64,000 nucleotides of DNA from Thermodesulfovibrio sp. (lineage in GTDB: Bacteria; Nitrospirota; Thermodesulfovibrionia; Thermodesulfovibrionales; Thermodesulfovibrionaceae), in NCBI GenBank assembly GCA_020725335.1, contig DYFF01000018.1, positions 62,001 through 126,000 of the forward strand, given 5' to 3'. The notes beneath the pieces are model-generated. The model was not told the DNA's origin and did no database searches. It saw only the letters and a list, made by a program, of their open reading frames with translations. How positions within the stretch are numbered: the first letter of the stretch is position 1; each line of letters starts with the position of its first letter. A program made the position numbers and the translations under genes. This document shows positions 5,740-49,216 of the stretch, in pieces.

Positions 5740-7824
5740 TTAAATTCTTAATTCAGAACCTGTCTCTAAAATTATTTTTTCAACTAATTTTGAATGAATA
5801 GAGTCTACTTCCTCTGAGGTAAGTGTTCTGTCAAAGGCTCTATAAGTAACTCGAAAGGCTATGCTCATTTTACCCTCTGGAATGCCTTTTCCTTTATAAA
5901 CATCAAAGATGTAAATATCTTCTATTAATTCATTCCCATGGAGTTTAACTATATCAAAAATTTTCTGTGACTCAAAATCTGTTGATACCAAAATTGCTGT
6001 GTCTCTTTTTATAGGTGGATAGTTTGAAAAAGGCTTGTAAGGGATTGCAGACTGAGAGCTGAATATTTTAAACAAGTTTTCAAGGTTAATTTCTCCAATG
6101 CATATATATGGTTTTGTCTTAAAATCAAATTTTGCGAGTATCTTTGGGGATAGGACTCCAATAAAACCTATTTTTTCATTATTTATATAAATATCTGCAG
6201 ACTGACCTAAATGCAAAAATGGTTCAGAAGACCTTTTAAAATAAAAATTATCAAACTTAAAATGTTTTAATAATCCTTCAACAACACCCTTTAATGCGTA
6301 AAAATCGTAGGGGTCTTCATTAAAAGTAGATTTAAAATCCTCTTTTTTCGAAACTATTCCAATATAAATCGGTTCATTAGGCAATAGACTGCCTTTTTCT
6401 AAAATGAATACTCTTCCAATCTCAAATAATTTAAGAGATTCTATCCCTCTGGAAGTATTGCTTTCAACGTTTCTTAGAAGCGAAGGGGTAAGCATTGTCC
6501 GCATAACTGATTCTTCCTGTCTTAATGGATTCATGAGTGATACAAAGTGTCTTCTTGTATCATCTGCGAGGATTTCAAAAAGATTTAAATCTTCTGGTGA
6601 CATAAAACTCATATTTACCGCTTCACTAAAACCAAGAGCAATCATGTATTCTCTGATTTTATATAAAAATTTCCTCTTGTTAGCAATTTCATAATTTTCC
6701 ATAACCGGTTTAAAACTCTGAGGAAGCTCTGAAGGGACTCTGTCATATCCATAAATTCTTGCTATTTCTTCAGCAATATCTTCTTCAATTGTAAGATCTT
6801 GTCTGTGAGTAGGAACTTTTGCAATATATGATTCTCTGTCTTTTCTTGTCTCTATCTCAAGTGAATGAAGAATATCTATCATATCTTCATCTTTAATATT
6901 AATTCCTATAAAATTACGTATGTTTTCTGTTTTGAAAGATATATATCTCTCTGGAATTTTTGTTGGATAAGCATCAATAACCTCATAAACATCTCCCCCT
7001 GCCATTTCCAGAATAAGAGATGCTGCTCTGTCAAGAGCTTTTTTTAAATTTTCTATATCTGTTCCTCTTTCAAATCTGTATGAAGCCTCTGTTGAAAGCC
7101 CCAATCTCTTTGATGTTTTCCTAATTGATTCTGGTTTAAAGTAGGCACTTTCAAGAAGTATATTTACAGTGCTTTCAGTAACCTCTGTATTTGCACCACC
7201 CATAACCCCTGCAATTGCTACTGGTCGTCTTCCGTCCCATATTAAAAGATCTTCAGGTCCTACTATTCTCTTTATTCCATCAAGGGTTTCTATCTCTTCA
7301 TTTTCCTTATCTGAAATGCTCTTAGAAGTTCCAACTCTTATACAATATCCTTCAAGAAGGTCAAGGTCAAAAGCATGAAGAGGATGTCCATATTCAAGTA
7401 AAACATAATTAGTAATATCAACCACATTATTTATTGAACGAATTCCTGCTCTCTCAAGTTTCACTCGGAGACTTTCTGGGGATTTTGTGACCTTTACTCC
7501 CTTTATAATTCTTCCTGCATATCTATAACAAAGTTCAGGATTGGCTATTAAAATTTTAAATTTATCATCTTTAAGTTCTTTCTGAATTTTAAATATGGGT
7601 TTTTTTACTCTACAGTTGAAAATAGCTCTAATCTCTCTGGCGATTCCAAGAATACTTAAACAATCTGCCCTATTAGGGGTTATTTCAATATCAAATACAA
7701 CATCACCATCTAATTCCTCTATACTGCCCACTTCAAGTCCAGCCATTGTAAGAGAGTCTGCCAGTTTTTGAGGCTCAAGTTCACATTCAATGTATTCTTT
7801 TAGCCAACTTATCGGAATTCTCAT
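5740..7824 (-). CDS. pheT: Phenylalanyl-tRNA synthetase beta subunit, short form
   Basis: Beta chain of the alpha2beta2 enzyme that charges tRNA-Phe. The 694 residues include the N-terminal MRIPISWLKEYIE block, then almost at once VVFDIEITPNRADCLSILG. The roughly 100-residue EMAP-II-like tRNA-binding domain that lies between these blocks in typical enzymes (about 790-800 residues) is absent. The B3/B4 editing region, B5 and C-terminal ferredoxin-fold anticodon domain (DVYKGKGIPEGKMSIAFR) are present. Its ATG overlaps the pheS stop by one base (TGATG), implying coupling. Confidence 0.96.
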   Translation of the reverse strand: MRIPISWLKEYIECELEPQKLADSLTMAGLEVGSIEELDGDVVFDIEITPNRADCLSILGIAREIRAIFNCRVKKPIFKIQKELKDDKFKILIANPELCYRYAGRIIKGVKVTKSPESLRVKLERAGIRSINNVVDITNYVLLEYGHPLHAFDLDLLEGYCIRVGTSKSISDKENEEIETLDGIKRIVGPEDLLIWDGRRPVAIAGVMGGANTEVTESTVNILLESAYFKPESIRKTSKRLGLSTEASYRFERGTDIENLKKALDRAASLILEMAGGDVYEVIDAYPTKIPERYISFKTENIRNFIGINIKDEDMIDILHSLEIETRKDRESYIAKVPTHRQDLTIEEDIAEEIARIYGYDRVPSELPQSFKPVMENYEIANKRKFLYKIREYMIALGFSEAVNMSFMSPEDLNLFEILADDTRRHFVSLMNPLRQEESVMRTMLTPSLLRNVESNTSRGIESLKLFEIGRVFILEKGSLLPNEPIYIGIVSKKEDFKSTFNEDPYDFYALKGVVEGLLKHFKFDNFYFKRSSEPFLHLGQSADIYINNEKIGFIGVLSPKILAKFDFKTKPYICIGEINLENLFKIFSSQSAIPYKPFSNYPPIKRDTAILVSTDFESQKIFDIVKLHGNELIEDIYIFDVYKGKGIPEGKMSIAFRVTYRAFDRTLTSEEVDSIHSKLVEKIILETGSELRI

Positions 7825-8831
7825 CAGAACTGCCTCAGAAATCTTATGTCATTTTCAAAAAATAATCTTATATCATCAATTCCATATTTGAGCATAGTAA
7901 GCCTTTCAACACCCATTCCAAAAGCAAAACCTGTAAATTTACCTTCAGGATAGCCTGCAAATTTAAAAACATTAGGATGAACCATCCCCGCACCAAGAAC
8001 CTCAAGCCATCCTGTTCCCTTACAAACCCTACAACCTTTAGCTCCGCATATAATACAGCCTATATCTATCTCAGTTGAAGGCTCAGTAAATGGGAAAAAA
8101 CTTGGTCTAAATCTTACTGGAATGTTTTCACCAAAGAGTCTCTGAAGGAAAAATACAAGAACTCCTTTAAGATGAGAAAATGCTATGTTTTCGTCAACCA
8201 TAAGCCCTTCTACCTGATGAAACATAGGGGTGTGAGTTATGTCAGAATCACATCTATAAACTTTACCAGGAGAGATAAACCTTAAAGGAGGCTTTTTCTT
8301 TTCCATAACTCTAACCTGAACAGGAGAAGTGTGAGTTCTTAAAACAATATCTTCACTTACATAAAAAGTATCCTGCATATCTCTGGCAGGATGATTTTTT
8401 GGAATGTTTAAAGCTTCGAAATTATAGTAGTCAAGCTCTACTTCTGGTCCTTCTTCAACTGTAAAACCAATTTCTCTAAATATATCTATTATTTCATAAA
8501 GCGTTTTATTTACAGGATGGCAACCGCCAAAATAATAATCTTTTCCTGGAAGAGTAATATCTATAATCTCCTTTTTTAAGGACTCTGATATCTCCTTCTG
8601 CTTGAGCTCTATCTCTTTATTTTTTATTTTTTCTTCAATGAAGTTTTTAAGTTCATTGAGAGCTTTGCCTTGAATTTTTCTTTCTTCAGATGATAGTCTA
8701 CCAAGATTTTTAATCTTTTCTGTTAAAAGACCCTTTTTACCTACATATTTAGCTTTCAGATTGATAAGGTCTTGAAAGGAAACAATATTATCTATTTCTT
8801 TAAGAAAAGACTGTTTAAGAGGATCGTCCAT
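7824..8831 (-). CDS. pheS: Phenylalanyl-tRNA synthetase alpha subunit
   Basis: Catalytic subunit of the Phe-tRNA synthetase. The 335 residues comprise an N-terminal coiled-coil (about 1-90) and the class II core, with TSPVQVRVM (motif 2 region), FHQVEGLMVD and the motif 3 region FAFGMGVERLTML. A CIICGAKGCRVC cysteine cluster, seen in many family members, is present. It starts one base after the rplT stop and overlaps pheT, giving an rplT-pheS-pheT unit. Confidence 0.97.
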   Translation of the reverse strand: MDDPLKQSFLKEIDNIVSFQDLINLKAKYVGKKGLLTEKIKNLGRLSSEERKIQGKALNELKNFIEEKIKNKEIELKQKEISESLKKEIIDITLPGKDYYFGGCHPVNKTLYEIIDIFREIGFTVEEGPEVELDYYNFEALNIPKNHPARDMQDTFYVSEDIVLRTHTSPVQVRVMEKKKPPLRFISPGKVYRCDSDITHTPMFHQVEGLMVDENIAFSHLKGVLVFFLQRLFGENIPVRFRPSFFPFTEPSTEIDIGCIICGAKGCRVCKGTGWLEVLGAGMVHPNVFKFAGYPEGKFTGFAFGMGVERLTMLKYGIDDIRLFFENDIRFLRQF

Positions 8832-23354: not shown

Positions 23355-24554
23355 TTACTCCAACACCTCTGTAACAACTCCTGCACCTACTGTTCTTCCA
23401 CCCTCCCTTATTGCAAACCTCAATCCATCTTCCATCGCTATCGGCGCTATCAGCTCCACTGTTATGTTCACATTGTCTCCAGGCATTATCATCTCTACCC
23501 CTTCAGGTAACTTTATCACTCCTGTTACATCTGTCGTCCTAAAGTAAAACTGCGGCCTGTATCCATTAAAAAACGGTGTGTGCCTCCCACCTTCCTCTTT
23601 CGTAAGTACATATACCTCTGCCTTAAACTTAGTATGCGGTGTTATACTTCCAGGCTTCGCCAATACCATACCTCTTTCCACTTCATCCTTTCCTACTCCC
23701 CTCAACAATACTCCTATATTATCCCCCGCTCTTCCCTCATCAAGTATCTTCCTGAACATCTCTACTCCAGTGGCTACTGTCTTACGGGTCTCCCTTAATC
23801 CTACTATCTCTACTTCATCTCCTACCTTTATTATTCCCCTCTCTACTCTTCCTGTTACCACTGTTCCTCTTCCAGATATGGTAAATACATCCTCTATCGG
23901 CATTAAAAATGGCTTGTCTATCGGCCTCTCAGGCTCAGGTATGTAACTATCAAGCGCATCCATTAACTCCTGGATAGGCTTGTACTCCTCAGCATTTGGA
24001 TCCTTTGACCCACTCTCCAATGCCTTTAATGCACTGCCCCTTACTACAGGTATCTCATCACCAGGAAATCCATACTTGCTCAAAAGCTCCCTCACCTCAA
24101 GCTCTACTAAGTCCAATAACTCAGGATCATCTACCATGTCTACTTTGTTCATGAATACCACTATGTACGGCACCCCTACCTGACGCGCAAGCAGTATGTG
24201 CTCCCTCGTCTGCGGCATCGGCCCATCATTGGCTGCTACCACCAGTATCGCTCCATCCATCTGCGCAGCTCCTGTTATCATGTTCTTTATATAGTCCGCA
24301 TGACCAGGACAATCTACATGCGCATAATGCCTCTTGTCTGTCTCATACTCTACATGTGCCGTGTTTATCGTTATTCCTCTGGCCTTCTCCTCAGGTGCAT
24401 TGTCTATCTGATCATAACTCTTAAACTGCGCCATACCCTTCAAATTCAAATACTTCGTTATCGCTGCTGTTAAAGTGGTCTTACCATGATCAATATGCCC
24501 TATTGTCCCCACATTTACATGCGGCTTCTTCCTCTCAAACTTTTCCTTTCCCAT
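23355..24554 (-). CDS. tuf: Elongation factor Tu
   Basis: GTPase that brings aminoacyl-tRNA to the ribosome. The 399 residues show G1 [11 protein letters not shown]3 [13 protein letters not shown]4 NKVD, the domain 2 region [12 protein letters not shown] and the C-terminal [11 protein letters not shown]. Base composition differs from its neighbours: two sampled 60-base lines are about 45% and 52% GC against about 33% in a sample of fusA. This suggests strong codon selection or exchange with another tuf copy. Confidence 0.98.
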
Positions 24555-24581
24555 CTCTTCCTCCTTAAAATCTCTAAACTT

Positions 24582-26666
24582 TTATTTTGTATTTCCCTTT
24601 ATCTTTGCAATAATCTGCTCTGTAAGATTCTTTGGAACTTCATCATAATGGGAAAACTGCATTGTATATGTGCCTCTACCCTGTGTTTTTGATCTTAAAT
24701 CAGTGGCATAGCCAAACATTTCTGCAAGAGGAACCATCGCTCTAATGACCTGCGCCTTCCCTCTCTTCTCCATTGACTGAACTCTACCACGCCTTGAATT
24801 TAAATCTCCTATTACTTCACCCATATAATCTTCTGGTGTCACAACTTCTACATTCATGATAGGCTCAAGAAGAACAATCTCAGCTTTCTTACAACCTTCT
24901 TTTAATGCCATTGAGCCTGCAATCTTGAATGCCATTTCTGATGAGTCTACCTCATGATAAGAACCATCAAACAATGTCACCTTTACATCAACTAATGGAT
25001 AACCTGCAAGAACTCCTCCCTCCATAGCCTCTACAATACCCTTTTCTACAGCTGGTATATATTCTCTGGGAATTGTCCCCCCTACTATTTTGTTAATAAA
25101 TTCGAAACCTTTACCTCTTTCCATCGGCTCGATTTCAATCCAAACATGACCATACTGACCACGGCCACCAGTTTGTCTTATAAATTTACCCTCTGCCTTA
25201 GCTGGCACTTTAATAGTTTCTTTATAAGCAACTTGAGGCTTTCCTACATTAGCTCCTACTCTAAACTCTCTTGTAAGTCTATCTACAATAATTTCAAGGT
25301 GTAATTCTCCCATTCCTGAAATAATAGTTTGCCCTGTTTCTTCATTGTAGGAAACCCTAAATGAGGGGTCTTCCTGAGAAATTTTTTGTAATGCTAAAGA
25401 CAATTTTTCCTGATCTGCCTTTGTCTTTGGTTCGATAGCTACTGATATTACAGGCTCGGGGAATTCTATCGATTCGAGTATAATCGGATTTGATTCATCA
25501 CATATCGTATCACCCGTAAATGTATTCTTCAAACCAACTACTGCAGCTATATCACCAGCACAAATTTCTTTTATCTCCTCTCTATGATTAGCATGCATTC
25601 TAAATATTCTCGCTACTCTCTCTTTTATATTCCTTGTTGCATTATAAATATAAGAACCTGATGTTATTACCCCTGAATAAACCCTAACATAGGTCAAACT
25701 ACCCATATATGGGTCCGCCATAATTTTAAAAGCTAAGGCTGATAGAGGTTCTTCAACATTAGGCTTTCTTTCCAGCTCAGACCCATCCAAAGGATTAATC
25801 CCTCTTACTGGCGGAACGTCAAGAGGGGACGGCAAATAATAAACAATGGCATCCAGTAGCATCTGAACACCCTTATTTTTAAAAGCAGAACCGCATAAAA
25901 CAGGAGTTATCTTTAGTTCAACCGTTCCTTTTCTCAGAGCTTTTCTTATTTCTTCTGCCGTTATTTCTTCACCAGCAAGGTATTTATCCATTAAATTATC
26001 ATCTATATCACATAATGCTTCTATCATTTTTTCTCTATACTTTTTTGCCTGCTCAAGATAATCCTGAGGAACTTCATCCTCAACAAATTTTGCTCCTAAT
26101 GTTTCGTCATCAAAATAGTATACTTTCATTTCAACAAGATCAATGGGTCCCCTAAAAGTATCTTCTTTACCTATAGGAATCTGGACTGGAACAGGATTTG
26201 CACCAAGTTTTTCAATCATACTTTCAACAGCCATATTAAAATCTGCTCCGAGTTTATCCATTTTGTTCATAAAAGCAATTCTTGGCACTCTGTATTTATC
26301 TGCTTGTCTCCATACAGTTTCACTTTGAGGTTCGACTCCCGCTGAAGCATCAAAAACTGCTACCGCTCCATCAAGAACTCTCAGAGATCTTTCGACCTCA
26401 ATAGTAAAATCTACGTGACCAGGAGTATCTATTATATTTATTTTGTGATCTTTCCATTCACAACTTGTTGCAGCAGCGGTGATTGTAATGCCCCGCTCTT
26501 GCTCCTGAGGCATCCAATCCATAACTGCTGTACCCTCATGGACCTCACCAATTTTATAGGTGACGCCAGTATAATAGAGAATGCGCTCAGTAGTTGTTGT
26601 TTTACCTGCATCTATGTGAGCCATAATACCAATATTTCTTGTTTTTTCTAAGGGAAATCTACTCAT
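24582..26666 (-). CDS. fusA: Elongation factor G
   Basis: Translocation GTPase, 694 residues. It has G1 AHIDAGKTT (from residue 16), the switch region [16 protein letters not shown]3 DTPGHVDFT and G4 NKMDKLG. Domains IV-V follow, with [15 protein letters not shown] and the C-terminal [15 protein letters not shown]. Order rpsL-rpsG-fusA-tuf is the classical str operon. Confidence 0.98.
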
Positions 26667-44320: not shown

Positions 44321-44404
44321 ATGTTAAATCAACACAGACCTAAAAAAAATTATGTTAAAATAATGACTAATGAAAATTGCTATTACAGCAGATGTTCATC
44401 TTAA
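44321..44404 (+). CDS. Possible 27-codon leader ORF
   Basis: ATG at 44321 is preceded by AGAAGGAGAGATT, a better ribosome site than that of the following gene. The frame reads 27 codons (starting MLNQHRPKKNYVKIM) and stops at 44404, 35 bases inside the phosphoesterase gene in another frame. It may aid reinitiation at the ATG of 44370. The peptide itself resembles nothing I recognise and may be meaningless. Confidence 0.3.
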   Translation: MLNQHRPKKNYVKIMTNENCYYSRCSS

Positions 44405-45431
44405 AACAAGAGAGGAAACTCCTGAAAGATATAAAGCCTTAGAAAATATTTTTTACCAGCTAAACACCAAAGAAATAGATAATCTATTTATTGCTGGAGA
44501 CTTATTTGACAAAGATTTATCTAATTACACCGACTTTGATATGCTATGTAAAAATTTTCCTTATATTAAAGTAACTATTATCAAAGGAAATCACGATTAT
44601 AAAATTAATAGTAGATTTTTTACTGCCTCAAACTTGGAAATAATAGACGATATTCAAATTAAGGAATTAGAAGGTCTTGCCATAGTTTTTATTCCATATG
44701 ATGCTGCAAAATCAATAGACGAGATTTTATCTGAATACAATCACGTACAAAACTTACCTGACAGATGGATTTTAATAGCACACGGAGACTATCTTACAGG
44801 CAATAGAGATTTAAATACTTATGAACCAGGCATTTACATGCCACTGACCACTAAATCTATAATTAGATATAATCCGTTAAAAGTGTTTTTAGGCCATATT
44901 CATAAGCCTTCTAATTTTGGAAGGGTGTTCTATCCCGGTTCTCCATGTAGTTTGGACATTACAGAAACAGGCAAAAGAAAATTTCTCATATATGACACAA
45001 AGTTAGATTCTATAGATGACGTTTTTGTCTATACAGAAAAAATTTATTTTGATGAGTCTATTATAATGCTACCATTTGAGGAAGAAGATGTATTTTTAAG
45101 AAGAAAATTTGATGACATGATTAAAAATTGGGGAATAAAGAGAGATGAGTTAAATAAGGTGGTATTACGTTTATCTGTCAAGGGATATGTAAGTGATTTA
45201 AAGAAAACAATGAATATTCTGCTAAAAATAATTTCACTTTTAGGAATTAATTTATACGATAAAGAGGGTTTAGACTTATCCGGAATAAAAATATTAAAGG
45301 AGTTAGAAGAGGACAAACTTTATCTTTTAGAAAGGATACGTGAAAAAATTGAAAACCTCAATATAAGTAATTTTTGTGTTTCAAAAGAGAAAATTTTAGA
45401 AAAATCAATGGAACTTATTTTTAGCGATTAG
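44370..45431 (+). CDS. SbcD/Mre11-like DNA repair phosphoesterase (YhaO-like)
   Basis: A 353-residue nuclease-type metallophosphoesterase. All motif sets are visible: ITADVHLK, IAGDLFDKD, IKGNHDYK, IAHGDY and LGHIHKPSNFG, followed by YPGSPCSLDITETGKRKF, the Mre11/SbcD-type cap region. It is followed one base later by an SbcC-like ATPase, as in yhaO-yhaN and sbcDC pairs. No ribosome site precedes the ATG; an overlapping upstream ORF might feed ribosomes to it. Confidence 0.9.
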   Translation: MKIAITADVHLKTREETPERYKALENIFYQLNTKEIDNLFIAGDLFDKDLSNYTDFDMLCKNFPYIKVTIIKGNHDYKINSRFFTASNLEIIDDIQIKELEGLAIVFIPYDAAKSIDEILSEYNHVQNLPDRWILIAHGDYLTGNRDLNTYEPGIYMPLTTKSIIRYNPLKVFLGHIHKPSNFGRVFYPGSPCSLDITETGKRKFLIYDTKLDSIDDVFVYTEKIYFDESIIMLPFEEEDVFLRRKFDDMIKNWGIKRDELNKVVLRLSVKGYVSDLKKTMNILLKIISLLGINLYDKEGLDLSGIKILKELEEDKLYLLERIREKIENLNISNFCVSKEKILEKSMELIFSD

Positions 45432-45432
45432 C

Positions 45433-48102
45433 ATGTCAATCAGAATAGAAAAAATTTCAGTTAAAAATTGTGGCCCTTTGAATAACTTCAGTACTGAATT
45501 AACTGATTTGAACCTTATTTATAGTGAAAATGAAAGGGGTAAATCTTATCTTGTTGAATTCATAATACACAGCCTATTTAAAAATAAAAATTACTGGAAA
45601 GATTTGAGACAGCCTGGACAGGGAAGAGTTATATTATCCGGACTTGAGAATAAATATATAGAGTTTTCACCTTCAACAAGAAAGAAAATAGAGGACTATC
45701 TTGAAAAACAGCAAAAAGGGCTGCCGCCAGCAATTTGTAATTTGCTAATTGTTAAGGAGGGAGAGACTGAAATAGTGAAAAATGCCTACGGAGTCGACAA
45801 AAGTGTTTTTAAAGCAATACTCTCACCCAGAAGGATACTTGACGAAATAGATTTGAAAATATCTGCTACTTTAAAGGGAGCAAAACTTGAAGAAGGAGAA
45901 ATAAACATTAAAAAACAAGGGGAAGGTAAGGATTATATTGAACTAAAAGAAAAGATTGCTAAAATTGAGGATTTAATTAAACAGATCGTTAGCGAATACG
46001 AGCAAGGAGAAATTAACGATTTAAGAATAAAAAAGCAAATACTTCTAAAAGAAAAAGAACTTCTATTAAAAGCAAAAAGGCATAAAGCATACCTTTTATC
46101 CAAAGAACTTAAAAATCTAAGAACCAAACAAGAAAAGATATCTCAAAGTGTATTAGAGGAACTAAAAAAACTTATAAACGATTATGTAAGACTAATTGAC
46201 AGTATTAAAAGATTAAACCTTGAAATCACCTCATTAAAAAAACAAACTGAAAAAATGCCCGAATTAATTGACAGGAAAGAAATGATTTTAAGAGCAAAAA
46301 GACATGAAGCTTATAATATATCAAAAGAATTAGAACACATAGAAAAACAGCTAAACAAATTTTCCGAAGAAGATATTTTTCAAATCCAACAGAATATTAC
46401 CAAGTATGCTGATAAATCTTCTGAAAAAGAAGAAAAAAATAAAATTATAAATCAGTTAAAAGAAAAATCCAAGGATTACTTATGGCTCAAGTCAGCAAAA
46501 GAAAATTACGATAGATTTATCTCTGCAGATTTAAATACTGAAACTAAAATCTCTTTTATTGCTTATATTTCAAGTTTTTTACTGATTTTAGGGCTTATAC
46601 TTATCTTTCTCGAACAAAAACTCTTGGGAATTATGCTTATTCTTTTATCAGCGTTAGGTGCATCATATTATGTGTTAAAATTGAGAAAATCTTTTATAAA
46701 TTACAAAGAAAAGGAAGAACTAAAAAATATAAGAGAAGAATTTTTTAATAGATTTGGAATAAAACTTGAAAATTTATTTAACTTGGAGAAACTTCTTAAA
46801 GAACAAGAAAAAAACTACTACAGTTTAGAAACATATGAAAAAGAAATTGACAGGTTAAATATAGAGATAAAATCAATAAAAAGGAATATAGAGGAAGCTT
46901 TTAAACGCATAGGGACTCAGGAAATAAATGAGGCCAATTGGCATGAGCAATTACTTGAAATTAAAAATCGCAGAAAACTTTTATTAGACCAATACCAAAA
47001 TTTGAAGAGAAAGTTAGAAGAACTTGAGGTGGAAGAGAGAGATTACGAATTAAACGACCCTGGAATTAAGTTTAGTAAAAAGGAAATGGAAGAACTAAAA
47101 TCAGAAATTGCGGACATAGAAAGATTAAGCATTCAGCAAACAAATAAAGAAAACGAAAAAAAGTACTTAGAGATTGAGTTTTCAGAAAATAGAAAAAGAA
47201 TAAATGAAATTTTTAAAAATATTCTTGGTGTTGAATTAGAAGAGTCTAAATGGATAGCGAAGTCAGATGAAATAGAAAAAGAGCAAAACCTTATTAAAAA
47301 TGATATAAAGAAATTAGAAGGGCTCCTTGAAGGATTAGGTGTTCAAGAGGTTGAATATGAAAGAGAAGACCCACAAAAAGTTTTTTCTCAACATGAGCTG
47401 GAAAAAATTGAAAGAGAATTATGCTTAATTGAAAATAAAATTAAAGAAAAAGATGAAGAACTTGCAAGGCTGAGAGATAAAATAATTCAACTAACAGGGA
47501 TAGATTTTTCAACTAACTGGAATGAAATGATAGCACAAGTTTACTTAAAAAGAAAAGAAATTCAAGAAAAATTAGAAGATTATGAAGCTAAAATAATATC
47601 TGGAATATTAATTCATGAAACAATAAGGGAACTCAATCAACAAGAAGATGAAAAACTTTTAGAAAAAATTAATTCGCCTGAAATAACAAGACTAATTGAA
47701 AAATTGACAGGAAGGTATAAATCTTTGAGTTTTGCTTTTCCATCTCAAGAGACAGCTTCTAAGTTTGATGAAAACGAGATAATAATCTCAGATGAATATT
47801 CCAGCTTTAAACTCAGAGATTTAAGCACGGGAGCCAAAGAACAGGTAATGATAGCTCTACGGATAGGTTTTGCTAAAAGTCTTTTAAAAGGAGAAACTGC
47901 TTTTTTAATACTTGATGATGCGTTTCAACATTCAGACTACAAAAAAAGACCTCTTCTAATTAACACTCTTTTTGAGTTATCGAAAGATGGTTGGCAGATA
48001 ATATATCTTACAATGGATGACCATCTTAGAGATTTATTTAGAGAAAAAAGCCATATTATTTCAGAAAGATTCAAGGAGATTTGCCTACCCTATGGAAAAT
48101 AG
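45433..48102 (+). CDS. SbcC/Rad50-like ATPase with internal membrane segments (YhaN-like)
   Basis: An 889-residue ABC-type coiled-coil ATPase. The P-loop is SENERGKS (Ser replaces the first Gly); the signature is STGAKEQVMIALRIG; Walker B is FLILDDAF. Mid-protein residues about 373-415 form a hydrophobic hairpin (YISSFLLILGLILIF and LLGIMLILLSALGA) where Rad50/SbcC have the CxxC zinc hook, and no CxxC is present. The coiled coils carry internal repeats (213 and 287 onward; about 484, 588 and 682 onward). This is the YhaN architecture of Bacillus. It probably forms a complex with the upstream phosphoesterase at the membrane. 5'-neighbour spacing is 1 base. Confidence 0.88.
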   Translation: MSIRIEKISVKNCGPLNNFSTELTDLNLIYSENERGKSYLVEFIIHSLFKNKNYWKDLRQPGQGRVILSGLENKYIEFSPSTRKKIEDYLEKQQKGLPPAICNLLIVKEGETEIVKNAYGVDKSVFKAILSPRRILDEIDLKISATLKGAKLEEGEINIKKQGEGKDYIELKEKIAKIEDLIKQIVSEYEQGEINDLRIKKQILLKEKELLLKAKRHKAYLLSKELKNLRTKQEKISQSVLEELKKLINDYVRLIDSIKRLNLEITSLKKQTEKMPELIDRKEMILRAKRHEAYNISKELEHIEKQLNKFSEEDIFQIQQNITKYADKSSEKEEKNKIINQLKEKSKDYLWLKSAKENYDRFISADLNTETKISFIAYISSFLLILGLILIFLEQKLLGIMLILLSALGASYYVLKLRKSFINYKEKEELKNIREEFFNRFGIKLENLFNLEKLLKEQEKNYYSLETYEKEIDRLNIEIKSIKRNIEEAFKRIGTQEINEANWHEQLLEIKNRRKLLLDQYQNLKRKLEELEVEERDYELNDPGIKFSKKEMEELKSEIADIERLSIQQTNKENEKKYLEIEFSENRKRINEIFKNILGVELEESKWIAKSDEIEKEQNLIKNDIKKLEGLLEGLGVQEVEYEREDPQKVFSQHELEKIERELCLIENKIKEKDEELARLRDKIIQLTGIDFSTNWNEMIAQVYLKRKEIQEKLEDYEAKIISGILIHETIRELNQQEDEKLLEKINSPEITRLIEKLTGRYKSLSFAFPSQETASKFDENEIIISDEYSSFKLRDLSTGAKEQVMIALRIGFAKSLLKGETAFLILDDAFQHSDYKKRPLLINTLFELSKDGWQIIYLTMDDHLRDLFREKSHIISERFKEICLPYGK

Positions 48103-49216
48103 TAAAAAAATAACAATTATTTTTTCTGATGAAGTAAGAGGTTATGATTTTGGAATAGGACACCCCTTTAGGGGAAGTCGTTATAAGATATTTTTTAAAT
48201 TTTTAGAGGAGAAATTCAGAAATAAATTTAACTATCAAATTTTAAAAGCAGAACCTGTATCAGAAGAAGATTTACTTTTAATCTGTTCGCAAGAATATGT
48301 AGAATATGTAAAAAATTTTTATGAATCAGCCTATGAGGGCGAGATTGATTATCTTGTAGCACTTTCAAGTAATTTTCTTAGTATAGATAATATACCTGGA
48401 GAAAATCCAGGTAATATTGAAAAGTCAGCACGATTTATTCTTGGTCAAATGAAAAAAGCCTGTGACTTGGTTCAAGAAGGTAAAATAAAAAAAGTTATAT
48501 CAATTGGTGGTGGACTCCACCATGCAAAGCCTTCTTATGGTGAAGGTTTTTGTGTTTATAATGACATTGCTTTCGGAGCAAAATATTTGATGGAGAAATA
48601 TTCATTAAAAAAAATTCTCATTTTGGACACAGATGCCCATGCAGGAAATGGTACAATGGAATATTTTTATGAAGATCCGAGAGTTTTGTTCATAGATATT
48701 CACCAAGATCCTCAAACAATTTATCCAGGAACAGGTTTCACATGGCAGATTGGTGAAGGAGAGGGGAAAGGTTTCACCATCAACTGTCCTTTGAAGCCAA
48801 ATGCTTGTTGGGATTCATATCAGTATGTTTTTGAAAATATAATTTTCCCAATAACTGAAGAATTTAAACCTGAAATAATTATAAGATATGGAGGAACAGA
48901 CCCCTATTGGAACGACTCCCTAACTTATCTTGGACTTATAATTAGAGACTTTAGAAGAATAGGAGAGCATACAAGGCAACTGTCTAATATATGTGATGGC
49001 AGAGTTATAGATACAATTGCTTCTGGATATAATGAAAAAGCTATAGGACCAGGCTGGCTTTCATTAATATGCGGGCTTGAAGGAATCGAGATAGAGATAG
49101 AAGAGCCTGAGCAGATTCCTGAAGAAATTAGAAATGATGCTGCATATGAAGCTACTAAGTCAATGGTGGCAGAGCTTAAGGGATATCTTAAAAATTACTG
49201 GAAATCTATGAGATAA
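48092..49216 (+). CDS. Histone deacetylase-fold amidohydrolase (AcuC/HDAC-like)
   Basis: A zinc deacetylase-family protein of 374 residues. It shows GHPFRGSRYKIF, the His pair in GGGLHHAKPSYGEGFCVYND, metal ligands in LDTDAHAGNGTMEYF, the third Asp region YGGTDPYWNDSL and the C-terminal ASGYNEKAIGPGW. The ATG at 48092 (MENSKKITII) is inside the end of the ATPase gene (11-base overlap); a longer reading to 48017 is possible but not family-like. Substrate unknown: acetyl-lysine, acetoin-related or acetylpolyamine. Coupling to the SbcCD-like pair suggests a shared message. Confidence 0.9.
   Translation: MENSKKITIIFSDEVRGYDFGIGHPFRGSRYKIFFKFLEEKFRNKFNYQILKAEPVSEEDLLLICSQEYVEYVKNFYESAYEGEIDYLVALSSNFLSIDNIPGENPGNIEKSARFILGQMKKACDLVQEGKIKKVISIGGGLHHAKPSYGEGFCVYNDIAFGAKYLMEKYSLKKILILDTDAHAGNGTMEYFYEDPRVLFIDIHQDPQTIYPGTGFTWQIGEGEGKGFTINCPLKPNACWDSYQYVFENIIFPITEEFKPEIIIRYGGTDPYWNDSLTYLGLIIRDFRRIGEHTRQLSNICDGRVIDTIASGYNEKAIGPGWLSLICGLEGIEIEIEEPEQIPEEIRNDAAYEATKSMVAELKGYLKNYWKSMR

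Follow-up and report, generated by a model that had tools for sequence, protein, structure and literature searches.

The locus described here is composed of three plus-strand genes within positions 44370-49216 of a 64,000-nucleotide stretch of DNA (the window), taken from the 1.8 Mb genome of a Thermodesulfovibrio (Nitrospirota), a heat-loving bacterium. According to the ORF listing of the window, a nuclease-like gene is followed by the gene of an ATPase and by that of a deacylase, with the following features.

44370..45431, plus strand: Mre11/SbcD-like metallophosphoesterase, 353 aa (Pfam Metallophos, Foldseek, invariant metal motifs)
45433..48102, plus strand: Rad50/SMC-like ABC ATPase with coiled-coil arms, 889 aa (Foldseek, weak NCBIfam Rad50_Sulf match, invariant motifs)
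45523..45546, plus strand: P-loop SENERGKS of the Walker A type, residues 31-38 (seen in the sequence; N33, E34, G36 and K37 invariant)
46027..46407, plus strand: N-terminal arm, two related units, residues 199-251 and 268-325 (self-alignment, DNA repeat D1)
46543..46683, plus strand: hydrophobic two-helix hairpin, residues 371-417, predicted membrane anchor (hydropathy, model helices)
46921..47517, plus strand: C-terminal arm, two related units, residues 497-586 and 601-695 (local self-alignment)
47821..47928, plus strand: ABC signature LSTGAKEQ (797-804) and the Walker B motif ILDDAFQ (826-832), both with little or no variation among nine orthologues
48092..49216, plus strand: zinc-dependent deacylase of the HDAC/AcuC superfamily, 374 aa (PF00850, catalytic residues, AcuC-like motifs and tree)

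The first two ORFs are separated by 1 base. For the deacylase the ATG at 48092 is the most likely start, in preference to the mechanical ORF start at 48017: AAGGAGA is found upstream at 48073-48079, and the orthologous deacylases begin at or near the equivalent position. With this start the gene overlaps that of the ATPase by 11 bases, and the spacing given in an earlier note on this DNA agrees with the coordinates. The neighbours of the trio in the window, mscL, nth, SIMPL and M16 peptidases, are housekeeping genes; acetate or acetoin genes (acu, acsA) do not adjoin the deacylase within the window, and promoter scans gave fewer matches than in shuffled sequence. Elsewhere in the window two minus-strand genes (5740-8831) match PHROG families without assigned function (E 3e-173 and 3e-145); the region of PHROG-matching genes also has translation elongation factor genes at 23355-26666.

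The nuclease matches Pfam Metallophos (calcineurin-like phosphoesterase) at E 9.4e-13. All five metallophosphoesterase motifs (D8xH10, GDxxD, GNHD, H138G and GHIH) are present and invariant or nearly so among nine orthologues, and the metal ligands D8/H10, D44, N74-H75, H138 and H176/H178 are invariant in all nine. The AlphaFold2 model (pLDDT 85.7) has the nuclease and capping-domain fold, the top 50 Foldseek matches being all Mre11/SbcD proteins (E 7e-13 to 1e-9). Its score against NCBIfam SbcD TIGR00619 is 31.4 bits, far below the curated cut-off of 77.65, so that it is best described as a protein of the Mre11/SbcD fold and not as a standard SbcD. One genome search with TIGR00619 was silent even on the nuclease of the window and is thus a weak guide to the absence of a canonical SbcD from this genome. 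The pair formed with the ATPase is probably active as a nuclease.

On the ATPase of the window no Pfam model reaches its cut-off, and NCBIfam Rad50_Sulf matches at E 2.3e-4, under the cut-off. With its model (pLDDT 76, pTM 0.41) Foldseek returned Rad50 first, then structures of Smc5/6, condensin and MukB, and the P-loop, the signature and the Walker B motif ILDDAF are mostly invariant in nine orthologues. A CxxC zinc hook was not found in any of the nine, and all nine have the hydrophobic hairpin in the same place, including those from two other genera of the order (G028 and G167, 41% and 30% identity). In the window protein the maximum 19-residue Kyte-Doolittle mean of the hairpin is 2.75, the model helices are at 376-392 and 396-441, and in every orthologue of this kind of pair, here called type A, the hydropathy is well over the usual membrane threshold. 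From hydropathy only, the coiled-coil arms are predicted to end in a membrane anchor replacing the zinc hook, and the pair would thus be located at the membrane. Both arms contain related units, with local self-alignment scores of 99 for the N-terminal arm (shuffle maximum 64) and 107 for the C-terminal arm (shuffle maximum 77). In G028 the ATPase is shorter, each arm having about one unit fewer, as would be expected if the arms pair.

The third protein carries the HDAC domain PF00850 (233 bits in one search, E 9.5e-69 in another) with a complete zinc and catalytic set, H143, H144, D179, D181, H183, D270 and Y313 being invariant in eight orthologues. It has the AcuC motifs GGGLHH, GFC-YND and DTDAH, groups with Anoxybacillus AcuC with support 100/98 in a tree with that single AcuC reference and a long branch, and is distinct from the widespread class II-like HDAC of the genus, which has the motif RPPGHH. 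The gatekeeper position reads D275-S276-L277, with L277 invariant, and a polyamine deacetylase was set aside, as the gatekeeper motifs of these enzymes are PIS (bacterial, cluster 4) or PEG (HDAC10) (PMC11532494). Judged by its sequence, the enzyme appears to be a lysine deacylase of the AcuC type which was recruited within this genus. What the earlier note had read in the three proteins, namely an Mre11/SbcD-like nuclease with complete metal motifs, a Rad50-like ATPase with a hydrophobic hairpin in place of CxxC and an HDAC-fold enzyme, is borne out by motifs, fold matches and profile scores; its membrane tethering of the pair gains support from a hairpin retained in nine of nine orthologues down to the most distant one.

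The distribution of the genes was surveyed in 16 genomes of Thermodesulfovibrio, 176 of the order and 295 of Nitrospirota. The type A pair is present in seven of the 16 (G000, G003, G004, G007, G008, G010 and G013) and the deacylase in eight, these seven and G006, which gives seven of seven genomes with the pair versus one of nine others. It adjoins the pair in six of the seven and in each of these either follows after 1 base or overlaps by 1-11 bases; in G004 it is on another contig than the pair, and in G006 it stands alone. About 7 kb from the lone gene of G006 two genes read like an AbiEii/AbiEi toxin-antitoxin pair (L056:1386-2629). The outer flanks of the trio belong to at least three unrelated neighbourhoods, the gene names outside the window being read off translations and not from profile searches: mscL/nth and SIMPL in G000 and G010, argS and ahcY in G003, flagellar motor genes and PilZ with argS about 3 kb away in G008 and G013 (transketolase on the other side in G008), and a potassium-channel-like gene in G007.

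Outside the genus the picture is different. The type A nuclease is found in only nine of the 176 genomes of the order, and the pairs of G028 and G167 have no deacylase. Downstream of the pair in G167 (L077:11664-18999) are genes reading like a PLD-nuclease/helicase/DNA-methylase cluster, possibly a defence island. No deacylase of the trio type was found outside the genus in the 295 Nitrospirota genomes at E 1e-60, save a weak partial match in G175, and a contig search with one trio protein returned only the SKW306 Thermodesulfovibrio genome. Searches of viral contigs with the two alignments and of plasmids with the ATPase found no relatives; phages gave two weak ATPase matches with 25% coverage. 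Literature searches on YhaN/YhaO and on SbcC together with a histone deacetylase brought up nothing on this arrangement. Since the deacylase also occurs alone and is absent beside the other pairs, it is not a general requirement of the pair. Between G003 and G004 the deacylase is 84.8% identical versus 78.9% for PNPase, which suggests that the gene may move by itself, and these identities suggest its horizontal transfer to G004 and G006; in the deacylase tree vertical descent was not rejected (p-AU 0.35). The trio is a genuine unit which Thermodesulfovibrio conserves, and so far it has been found only in this genus. The three-gene system of the earlier note thus stands within the genus, by co-occurrence and adjacency, and is weakened as a broad claim by its confinement to this genus among the Nitrospirota searched, by the pairs of G028 and G167 and by the separate deacylases of G004 and G006.

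A second SbcD/SbcC-like pair (type B), only distantly related to type A, consists of a nuclease of about 377-391 aa and an ATPase of 669-681 aa which, by hydropathy, also has a hydrophobic hairpin. It is located as follows.

L103:4947-8154, type B pair
L104:5491-8641, type B pair
L105:7379-10514, type B pair
L106:7256-10412, type B pair
L107:3925-7087, type B pair
L108:3683-6839, type B pair
L109:2406-5608, type B pair

Type B was found in seven further genomes of the genus, no more, and none of these has type A. The counts are not independent and few events lie behind them, since in the PNPase tree all type B genomes group in a single clade, and a second one unites five of the six type A genomes that were placed, with G004 outside this main type A clade. 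In most genomes type B lies between HU and rpsO-pnp (G014 showing the HU side only and G015 the rpsO side only), and in G004, a type A genome, this site is empty, HU directly adjoining rpsO. A third SbcD/SbcC-like pair, without hydrophobic hairpin or CxxC, is present in G011 (L078:3558-6936), and no SbcD/SbcC-like pair was found in G005, a genome 72% complete. The simplest reading is that one pair has replaced the other. The alternation of the two suggests a function which the genus retains rather than disposable defence cargo, and we regard the pair as a housekeeping complex for DNA processing which can be interchanged, and not as phage defence.

The reading which we prefer, and to which we give an even chance, is that of a membrane-anchored, Mre11-Rad50-like housekeeping complex together with an AcuC-type deacylase which tunes the complex or a partner bound to DNA. 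The ATPase heads would bind DNA and open on it, the nuclease would cut ends or secondary structures, and the transmembrane hairpin at the tips of the arms would tether the complex to the membrane on its inner side. Such a DNA-processing complex would alternate in the genus with the second, distantly related membrane-hairpin pair. The deacylase, whose translation would in one clade be coupled to that of the pair, would deacylate the complex or its DNA-bound partner, these being its most likely substrates. In the best-supported picture the deacylase gene joined the operon of the pair within Thermodesulfovibrio; coupled translation and retention through several relocations suggest a role shared with the pair. 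A stricter version, in which the deacylase is a dedicated regulator and the acylation state of lysines, for example in the ATPase, the nuclease or the nucleoid protein HU, acts as a switch for membrane-bound DNA processing, is a tentative proposal which we consider rather unlikely.

Alternatively, the deacylase would be a passenger which is co-transcribed with a membrane-anchored SbcCD-like pair, plays no part in the complex and acts on a metabolic protein or a small molecule, such as acetyl-CoA synthetase or an acetylated amine. This explanation is possible, if somewhat doubtful. It would account for the deacylases without an adjacent pair in G004 and G006, for the pairs of G028 and G167, and for the grouping with AcuC and the GGGLHH and GFC-YND motifs in common, the AcuC of B. 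subtilis acting on AcsA (PMC11532494). It is less easily reconciled with a deacylase present in every genome with the pair and coupled to it in at least three neighbourhoods, with both being held by G004 in spite of its place in the PNPase tree, and with the missing acetate and acetoin genes beside the deacylase in the window.

The hydrophobic segment could also be a buried dimerisation apex replacing the zinc hook in a soluble complex, as it is short (about 46 residues) and lies between the arms where Rad50 has its hook, but its high hydropathy in all type A orthologues and again in the distant type B makes this improbable. Still less probable is that the trio is an anti-phage SMC-nuclease system of the Lamassu type with the deacylase as effector or regulator, a defence-type role which the earlier note had raised and which is not favoured by our data. 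PADLOC does match LmuB to the ATPase (in six of nine orthologues, with E 3.5e-7 for that of the window), the distribution is patchy over several genomic sites, and the G167 pair adjoins the helicase/PLD/methylase-like cluster, read from translations. However, these LmuB matches are weak and fall on the coiled coil and P-loop common to many SMC-like proteins, there is neither an LmuA-type effector nor LmuC, the genes flanking the trio in the window are housekeeping ones, viral contigs and plasmids are without relatives and the phage match is poor, and the pair alternates exclusively with another SbcCD-like pair. The deacylase had no PADLOC match.

To our knowledge little has been described on SbcCD-like complexes with membrane hairpins, and the alternation of two such pairs in one genus suggests a common function that has been retained. 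Lysine acylation has been linked to the control of Mre11-Rad50 in eukaryotes; no description of such control in bacteria was found in the literature searched, and should the deacylase act on the complex, lysine acylation would be tied to the control of a bacterial Mre11-Rad50. Thermodesulfovibrio is small enough as a genus for direct testing.

With AcuC (cluster 2, PMC11532494) the deacylase shares GGGLHH, GFC-YND and DTDAH, and it differs by its long branch, by SGYN for GGGYD and DAHAG/DAHGG for DAHHG, and by its linkage to a nuclease-ATPase pair with acu genes absent nearby. The likeness to Lamassu LmuB is a distant coiled-coil and P-loop similarity of the ATPase; LmuA and LmuC are missing here and the partner nuclease is an Mre11-like phosphoesterase. 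SbcCD and Mre11-Rad50 have in common with the pair a nuclease and an ABC ATPase in one operon, the metal motifs, the capping region and Rad50-like heads, whereas the pair described here has a hydrophobic hairpin instead of CxxC, stays far under the curated SbcD and Rad50 cut-offs and is followed by a deacylase gene. In Bacillus, YhaO-YhaN is composed of an SbcD-like protein and an SbcC-like ATPase said to have a central hydrophobic segment, and yhaO-yhaN is presumably followed by the gene of the exoribonuclease YhaM, in whose place the deacylase is found here. Pfam AAA_27, which we take to be the YhaN domain family, matched two of eight ATPase orthologues weakly (best E 0.065, not above gathering). 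The two systems are alike in the central hydrophobic segment of the coiled-coil region, seen here by hydropathy only and said to be present in YhaN.
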